Part shown: in pieces, positions 54,848-55,930 of the stretch
Position numbering within the stretch: position 1 is the stretch's first letter
Layout of the letters: every line of letters starts with the position of its first letter
Source: Cyanobacteria bacterium QS_8_64_29
Lineage (GTDB): Bacteria; Cyanobacteriota; Cyanobacteriia; Cyanobacteriales; Rubidibacteraceae
DNA: 55,930 bases
Assembly (NCBI GenBank): GCA_003022125.1
Contig: PXQH01000049.1
Location: 1 to 55,930, forward strand
Direction: 5' to 3'
Position numbers and translations under genes: made by a program
The notes under the pieces: model-generated
What the model was told of the DNA's origin: nothing
Seen by the model: the letters and a program-made list of their open reading frames with translations, nothing else
The model's database searches: none

Positions 54848-55189
54848 ATGGCAGCCAGCATGCGCCTTGCGTTTCCGGTCAGAATGGAAGCCGCCGCCGT
54901 TACGACGCAACAGCCCATCCAAACCTGGTGGAACCGCCACAGCGGCCAGCGTGCAGCGGTATCAAAGCTCAAGGGCTATCCGCTAACCCGGCAAAGCGAA
55001 ACACACTACTGCCGCGTCAGCCAACCCGAGATTCAGACTGACGGGACGGTCAGTTGGCTGGAGGGCACCCAGCGGCAGCGCTACCAGCTGTCAGCCATCG
55101 ACTTGATGACCGAGGCCAACAGCTTGTGGCTCCAACTCGCCGAGAGCGAGAATGCCGGCATCGACAGCGTTTACATTAAGTACTACTAG
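54848..55189 (+). CDS. Hypothetical protein
   Basis: Up to 113 residues; starts at 54848, 54860 or 54881 (MEAAAVTTQQPIQTWW) are all possible and none has a strong ribosome site. The C-terminal half (YCRVSQPEIQTDGTVSWLEGTQRQRY ... LWLQLAESENAGIDSVYIKYY in part) has ordered-protein composition. I do not recognise it. It converges with the HTH gene 18 bp away. Confidence 0.5.
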   Translation: MAASMRLAFPVRMEAAAVTTQQPIQTWWNRHSGQRAAVSKLKGYPLTRQSETHYCRVSQPEIQTDGTVSWLEGTQRQRYQLSAIDLMTEANSLWLQLAESENAGIDSVYIKYY

Positions 55190-55207: not shown

Positions 55208-55849
55208 CTACGGGTTGGGGCTGACTTGGGCGCGATAGAGCAGCCTGTCGCCCTGGCAGTACCCCACATAGCGCACGCAGACGCGATCGCCGGGCTCCGC
55301 CGCCCCATCCAGCAGTTGGTGCCACTGCGGGTCGTAGGCCACCGCTTGGCCCACAGCTCCAATGGGGCGGATGCCCCAGTGCTCGAGCAGCCGCTCGACC
55401 GGCTCAACCAAGGGCACGAGCTTGTAAGCGGGCAACTCGGGGTTGGCTTGCGCTTGCTCGGCGGCAGTGGGCCACTGCAACAGCCACGGCTCCAGAATCC
55501 CCAGGCTGTCGCGCTGCCATTGCGCCCACTGCTGCTGCTGTTGATGGGCTTGCTGCTGCTGCAGGCGTTGGCACTCTTGCCGCAAGGCAGCCAGTGCTGC
55601 TTGTTCGCGGTTGGGGTCCCCGCTGGGATCGAAGTGCGCCAGCAGCTCCGCCACCGAGACTTGCAGCGCCTGGGCCAAGTTCTGCAGCGTACCCAGCCGC
55701 ATGCGCGCAATCTCGCCCCGCCGCAGGTAGTGGAGCTGGCGCTCGGAAACGCCGGCCGCACGGCTCAGTTGCCGCAAGCTTGAGAGCCCCACCCGCTGCA
55801 TCCACTGCCGCAGCAAGCGGGCGCGATCGGGTGGGGCTGCATCGGTCAT
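55208..55849 (-). CDS. Helix-turn-helix protein with a GrpE-like C-terminal domain
   Basis: 213 residues. An N-terminal Xre-like HTH (LRQLSRAAGVSERQLHYLRRGEIARM, residues about 21-46), a Gln-rich coiled coil (about 80-115), and a C-terminal segment resembling the GrpE head: VERLLEHWGIRPIG, AVAYDPQWHQLL, AEPGDRVCVRYVGYCQGDRLLYRAQVSP, matching the GrpE pattern of FGV..I, lDPn.HqA, PG.V, GY.l..R..R.A.V. True GrpE is the DnaK nucleotide-exchange factor. The gene starts 28 bp after dps and is probably cotranscribed with it. The GrpE link is from pattern comparison only. Confidence 0.7.
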   Translation of the reverse strand: MTDAAPPDRARLLRQWMQRVGLSSLRQLSRAAGVSERQLHYLRRGEIARMRLGTLQNLAQALQVSVAELLAHFDPSGDPNREQAALAALRQECQRLQQQQAHQQQQQWAQWQRDSLGILEPWLLQWPTAAEQAQANPELPAYKLVPLVEPVERLLEHWGIRPIGAVGQAVAYDPQWHQLLDGAAEPGDRVCVRYVGYCQGDRLLYRAQVSPNP

Positions 55850-55877
55850 GGCTTCACAGTTGCCGCCGAGCTGCCGG

Positions 55878-55930
55878 TTAACTCGATTGCTCGATCATGC
55901 TGCGCAGCATCCAAGCCGTCTTTTCGTGGG
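55878..55930 (-). CDS. dps: Dps-family ferritin-like protein, 3' end only
   Basis: The minus strand at the right edge reads HEKTAWMLRSMIEQSS and a TAA stop (55878-55880). HEKTAWMLR is a well-known C-terminal signature of Dps DNA-binding/iron-storage proteins. The rest of the gene lies beyond the window. The HTH/GrpE-like gene follows closely on the same strand. Confidence 0.75.
   Translation of the reverse strand, partial: HEKTAWMLRSMIEQSS

Follow-up and report, generated by a model that had tools for sequence, protein, structure and literature searches.

An HTH-GrpE fusion gene lies downstream of dps

The window, by which we mean the whole 55,930-nucleotide stretch of cyanobacterial DNA analysed here, carries at 55208-55849 on the minus strand an open reading frame with an ATG start that encodes 213 amino acids plus the stop. 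Upstream of this ATG on the same strand, after a gap of 28 nt (55850-55877), lie the last 17 codons of dps (55878-55930, minus strand; HEKTAWMLRSMIEQSS; stop codon 55878-55880), that is, its last 16 residues and the stop, which match the Dps C termini of other loci and are cut by the contig end. We found no promoter- or terminator-like site in the 28-nt gap. An earlier note on this DNA had described the product as a helix-turn-helix (HTH) domain fused to a coiled coil and a GrpE-like head, and the four motifs that it quoted (WGIRPIG, YDPQWHQLL, EPGDRV and GYCQGDRLLYRAQV) are all present in the 213-residue frame.

The HTH occupies residues 9-73 (55631-55825, minus strand), which fold as five helices in the AlphaFold (AF) model and are of the Cro/C1 (XRE) type. 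Residues 13-72 match PF13443 (HTH_26) above the curated cut-off (E = 2.3e-10, 41 bits against a cut-off of 22), and 53 of 56 orthologues match the same Pfam family. In Foldseek comparisons the N-terminal five-helix HTH resembled those of SinR (3qq6_A; 26% identity over the domain) and DdrO (6jq1; 36%). XRE or Cro/C1 regulators such as these differ from the fusion protein, which ends in a GrpE-type stalk and head.

Convergent with the fusion gene is an open reading frame of 113 amino acids (54848-55189, plus strand) with no Pfam or NCBIfam match. The same genome also contains a second, internally shortened copy of the part of the fusion gene that encodes the coil (G000:C44; L094:4835-5042), with 88% identity over 174 nt. 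It adjoins 56 nt identical to the start of the HTH, lies at the end of a 5-kb contig, and is either a remnant or an assembly artefact.

The C-terminal part is a GrpE homologue

We modelled the protein with AlphaFold2 from the 56 orthologues (mean pLDDT 91.8). After the HTH, the predicted elements follow the order of GrpE: a long, Gln-rich helix at residues 79-135 (55445-55615, minus strand), corresponding by alignment to the GrpE stalk and first bundle helix; a short helix at residues 141-157 (55379-55429, minus strand), corresponding to the second bundle helix; and seven strands at residues 160-211 (55217-55372, minus strand), which structure comparison equates with the beta-wing head. A separate model of residues 79-213 reached a pLDDT of 95.3. 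With this model as the query, the top 12 Foldseek matches were all GrpE chains (E = 1.4e-5 to 0.022; next match E = 2.9), and VIA-align superposed it on Thermus GrpE (3a6m) over 129 residues with Z 8.2 and an rmsd of 3.5 Å. Structure prediction, the check that the earlier note had proposed, thus bears out its combination of HTH, coil and GrpE-like fold. Its assignment of residues 115-213 as the GrpE-like region holds as to likeness but places the boundary too late, as the similarity starts before residue 115, within the long helix.

Taken alone, the window protein falls short of the PF01025 (GrpE) cut-off, with 13.5 bits against 25.8 (E = 0.057, residues 151-209). As a family, however, the orthologues do match: 44 of 56 at E <= 0.01, the best at 7e-10, with several orthologous places in other genomes passing the Pfam cut-off (for example G042:C39, 38.4 bits). 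Comparison by hhalign of the coil-head alignment (A5) with 32 canonical GrpEs (31 cyanobacterial and one from E. coli) gave E = 4.9e-8 and a probability of 94.8%. At the level of the family the homology is firm, and the C-terminal part of the fusion protein is a genuine GrpE homologue. It shares with GrpE the long helix, the short bundle helix, the beta head and the D-P-x-x-H, G-Y and A-x-V motifs. It differs in carrying an HTH in place of the disordered N-terminal tail of functional GrpE (only residues 1-4 fall below pLDDT 50, and residues 9-73 fold as the HTH) and in having lost the core of the DnaK-binding patch.

The genome that contains the window encodes a canonical GrpE separately (G000:C42). 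We sampled 28 of the 56 fusion proteins for a tree of 80 sequences, in which they formed one clade (support 100/99) apart from the 32 canonical GrpEs; the bootstrap is rough and not settled, and branches are long.

The known DnaK-binding patch is lost

GrpE is the exchange factor of DnaK, and the earlier note had suggested that the fusion protein senses DnaK availability. In M. tuberculosis GrpE, the patch altered in Mut-1 (R64, N71, R73, K74, R75 and R78) is reported to be required for DnaK binding (by isothermal titration calorimetry (ITC) and pull-down), for exchange and for viability, and the head mutants Mut-2 and Mut-3 are reported to bind DnaK normally (PMC10803776). As read from the alignment, M. 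tuberculosis and E. coli residue numbers coincide in the patch region.

Scored without reference to alignment register, the patch core N-x-R-[KR]-R is present in all 32 canonical GrpEs, and none of the 56 fusion proteins has it in the coil region. In the window protein its place is taken by R95-L-Q-Q-Q99 (55553-55567, minus strand), opposite canonical N71-x-R-[KR]-R75, the patch whose function is described in PMC10803776. In the joint alignment, R64, N71, R73, R/K74 and R75 are each present in all 32 canonical rows. Among the 56 fusion proteins, N71 is found in one, and a basic residue in five at position 73, two at 74 and two at 75; at position 64, the six commonest states, covering 51 of 56 rows, lack R. 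The head has also changed: R/K at 186 and A156 go from 32/32 canonical to 0/56 fusion proteins, and R/K at 176 (M. tuberculosis R169) from 29/32 to 2/56. Other head residues are retained (E. coli numbering): P151 in 54, H154, G177 and V190 in all 56, and R/K at 183 in 49, and Y178 of the G177-Y178 pair is also among those kept. The head changes alone say little, because the Mut-2 and Mut-3 head mutants still bound DnaK.

Judged from these alignments, the family seems to have retained the GrpE scaffold while losing the known DnaK grip. Since the part lost is the one with a tested role in binding, sensing of DnaK by the fusion protein looks unlikely, though not impossible. The earlier suggestion fares poorly on this evidence, with the core missing from 56 of 56 members and other contact positions changed.

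The fusion gene belongs to a conserved srx-dps neighbourhood

To describe the gene neighbourhood, we compared 125 unique loci (56 from the G genomes and 69 named ones, after removal of duplicates). Dps was encoded at 60 of the 125, a count in which loci cut by a contig end, the window's own included, were kept and scored as lacking Dps; it lay upstream on the same strand at 59 and on both sides at 13. One representative of this cluster was identified as Ferritin/Dps by Pfam. A representative of a second neighbouring cluster was ParB_N-like, just below the Pfam cut-off; its sequence, together with asl4146/SrxA of Nostoc, led us to read this cluster as sulfiredoxin (srx). The link to dps proposed in the earlier note was thus confirmed, and is part of a larger srx-dps pattern.

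Sulfiredoxin matches were found in 65 of 292 genomes, 60 of which also carry the fusion gene (101 fusion genomes counted). These 101 were tabulated out of 113 genomes with a match; the 12 omitted had weak HTH-only, partial or paralogue-only matches, and the Fisher test, whose p value ignores kinship, treated them as genomes without the fusion. In two of the 101 (G130 and G213), the member is closer to a second paralogue. Among the 60 genomes with both genes, srx lay within 3 kb upstream on the same strand in 49, often with dps in between and, in nine of these, separated from the fusion gene by only 19-122 bp; in the remaining 11, srx was on another contig or far off. For 41 of the 101 fusion genomes there was no srx match. 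In the window's own family it is common for the locus to lack dps and to carry ccmK-like genes downstream.

In the genome that contains the window, srx runs off the end of one contig (C21), dps followed by the fusion gene is found at the end of another (C49), and only one other, distant Dps was found. The srx-dps-fusion operon is therefore probably whole in this genome and split by an assembly gap.

The same gene order is seen, by locus numbers, in the FurC/PerR peroxide regulon of Anabaena/Nostoc 7120, with srxA (asl4146), dps (all4145) and all4144. In the published account, srxA and dps stand at the head of a table of peroxide-induced genes (Table 2), with values of 8.2 and 6.5 in the peroxide column (PMC4518582), and all4144 appears as a STRING partner of all4145 that is 'probably a chaperon' (PMC8147232). 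We infer that all4144 is the Nostoc 7120 orthologue of the fusion gene; what PMC8147232 says of all4144 mentions no HTH, GrpE or experiment.

A PerR/FurC-type box precedes srx

The srx upstream regions share the pattern TTGCAA-N10-AAGTCATAACGAGTATGATTT, which places the inverted repeat TCATA-N5-TATGA over the apparent -10 element. The core of this box was present in 27 of the 28 srx upstream regions of the operon set and in 0 shuffled ones, and the srx box of the window's genome agrees at 18 of 21 bases. The box also agrees with the published FurC/PerR consensus CAAAATCATAACGACTTTG, for which FurC binding upstream of srxA and prxA has been reported (PMC10406281). The operon promoter thus carries a PerR-type box, a feature expected of a PerR/FurC regulon member.

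Of the 14 sites that matched a strict form of the pattern in 60 genomes, 13 preceded srx. With two mismatches allowed, the box was found in 51 of the 60 genomes and also occurred at genes for 2-Cys and type II peroxiredoxins, thioredoxin reductase, KatG and others, gene names that are our reading of the sequences at 20 chosen places. Among 20 srx upstream regions chosen from the 65, the box was missing in all four from family f41; of the 16 from outside that family, the linked locus of G286 had no trace of it, and G067 and G090 agreed at only 14 of 21 bases. One genome, G274, lacks the fusion gene but has the box together with srx and dps, and because of this we do not regard the box as the fusion protein's own. 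PerR/FurC-type boxes were also seen at 2-Cys peroxiredoxin genes in the window's genome and relatives (L369, L370 and L372), with the peroxiredoxin gene on the strand opposite to the listed box.

A palindrome at the fusion gene itself, TTGCATCAATTGATGCAA, was discarded as an artefact: the searched regions had run into the open reading frame, where TTGATGCAA encodes a conserved Leu-Met-Gln. When the motif search was redone without coding sequence, the srx motif alone was clearly prominent, with smaller excesses in other sets. The search returned no operator for the HTH of the fusion protein: it gave weak motifs only, and the stretch from dps to the fusion gene contained no srx-type box.

A DNA-binding member of the peroxide response

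We consider it somewhat better than an even chance (probability about 0.55) that the fusion gene is the third gene of a PerR/FurC-controlled srx-dps operon and encodes a predicted XRE-type DNA-binding protein built on a repurposed GrpE scaffold. This reading builds on the homology, the predicted fold and the conserved gene order, on the PerR-type box that precedes srx, and on the loss of the published DnaK-binding patch; counting against its operon part, the fusion gene is also found without srx or dps nearby. An old cyanobacterial GrpE paralogue would have had its disordered N-terminal tail and DnaK-gripping helix replaced by an XRE-type domain and a Gln-rich coil. The srx-dps-fusion genes would form a peroxide-stress operon that PerR/FurC represses and hydrogen peroxide relieves. 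Its third product may dimerize through the GrpE stalk and bundle and so offer two HTH domains to DNA, acting as a secondary regulator or nucleoid-binding factor in peroxide stress. The GrpE-type part would then serve as a dimerization and partner-binding module, not as a nucleotide exchange factor, its partner being a protein distinct from DnaK. The likeliest role is thus that of a dimer that binds DNA in the peroxide response and meets a non-DnaK partner through its GrpE-type part. More tentatively, the stalk and head of this DNA-bound stress factor might sense a different protein, for which sulfiredoxin, peroxiredoxin and Dps are candidates, and link it to transcription or to protection of the nucleoid.

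Alternative roles compete with this one. The protein could serve sulfiredoxin, 2-Cys peroxiredoxin or Dps as an adaptor or assembly factor, with an HTH that makes protein contacts or binds DNA non-specifically near Dps. The tight spacing to srx in nine genomes and the linkage to dps would fit such a role, but a regular HTH_26 in 53 of 56 members is what real DNA binding would predict; we regard the adaptor role as unlikely. A regulator that reads DnaK availability through its GrpE part, or an exchange factor tethered to DNA that recruits DnaK to the nucleoid and Dps, is more doubtful still. The loss of N-x-R-[KR]-R from every fusion protein, the complete loss of A156 and of the basic residue at 186, the near-complete loss of that at 176, and the failure of the M. 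tuberculosis Mut-1 mutant to bind DnaK in vitro and in pull-downs (PMC10803776) all speak against DnaK binding. What the proposal retains is the real GrpE fold of the models and the conservation of P151, H154 and the basic residue at 183. Cyanobacteria have several DnaK proteins, and a divergent DnaK partner is therefore possible.

Hardly credible, in our judgement, is a repressor role in which the fusion protein would bind the srx promoter at its conserved palindrome, TCATAACGA-N-TATGA, and so autoregulate its operon. The near restriction of the strict palindrome to srx, and its absence from srx in the four f41 genomes, which lack the fusion, had pointed that way. With two mismatches the palindrome instead marks the peroxide regulon and fits the FurC consensus, and it stands before an srx-dps pair in G274, where there is no fusion gene; we therefore dropped it as the operator of the fusion protein.

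Both halves of the protein are of known kinds, and their combination, conservation and operon appear undescribed in the open-access literature, where we found no description of an HTH-GrpE protein in cyanobacteria. Further sources cited are PMC11685456, PMC6616624, PMC4788461, PMC13421787, PMC12915176, PMC12282138 and PMC12584617. If the preferred reading, a DNA-binding peroxide-stress factor on a GrpE scaffold, is true, it would be a clear example of a co-chaperone scaffold put to new use in stress regulation, in a widespread cyanobacterial GrpE paralogue, and would add an unstudied third gene to the studied peroxide operon of Nostoc 7120.

Distribution and related families

Matches at E <= 1e-3, paralogues included, were found in 57 of 60 relatives, and the conservation of the fusion protein is far above chance. 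We drew 292 genomes from the phylum and found a match at E <= 1e-5 in 113. The 20 match-free genomes listed individually all belong to family f41 (1.6-3.0 Mb), with 159 further match-free genomes beyond these; four f41 genomes searched again gave no match at E <= 0.01. A first scan of genome contigs had matched 0 of 284 stretches. Using alignment A3, 229 of 283 stretches of GTDB contigs matched, and the titles of the best 80, which were kept, are cyanobacterial. There were no relatives among 23 stretches of viral contigs and no match in the plasmids searched.

A second GrpE-like paralogue family was also observed in cyanobacteria (L088, L083, L089, L092, L098, L133 and others; alignment A2). 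Its members have an N-terminal hydrophobic segment and a C-terminal VSRTLP, several with an HTH between the two, and N-x-R-[KR]-R occurs in 0 of 20; its profile matches that of the fusion family over the full length (E = 5e-49). Two genomes outside the class, from family f51, encode a coil and GrpE-like head behind a different N terminus (L252:2995-3906 and L253:2788-3456).
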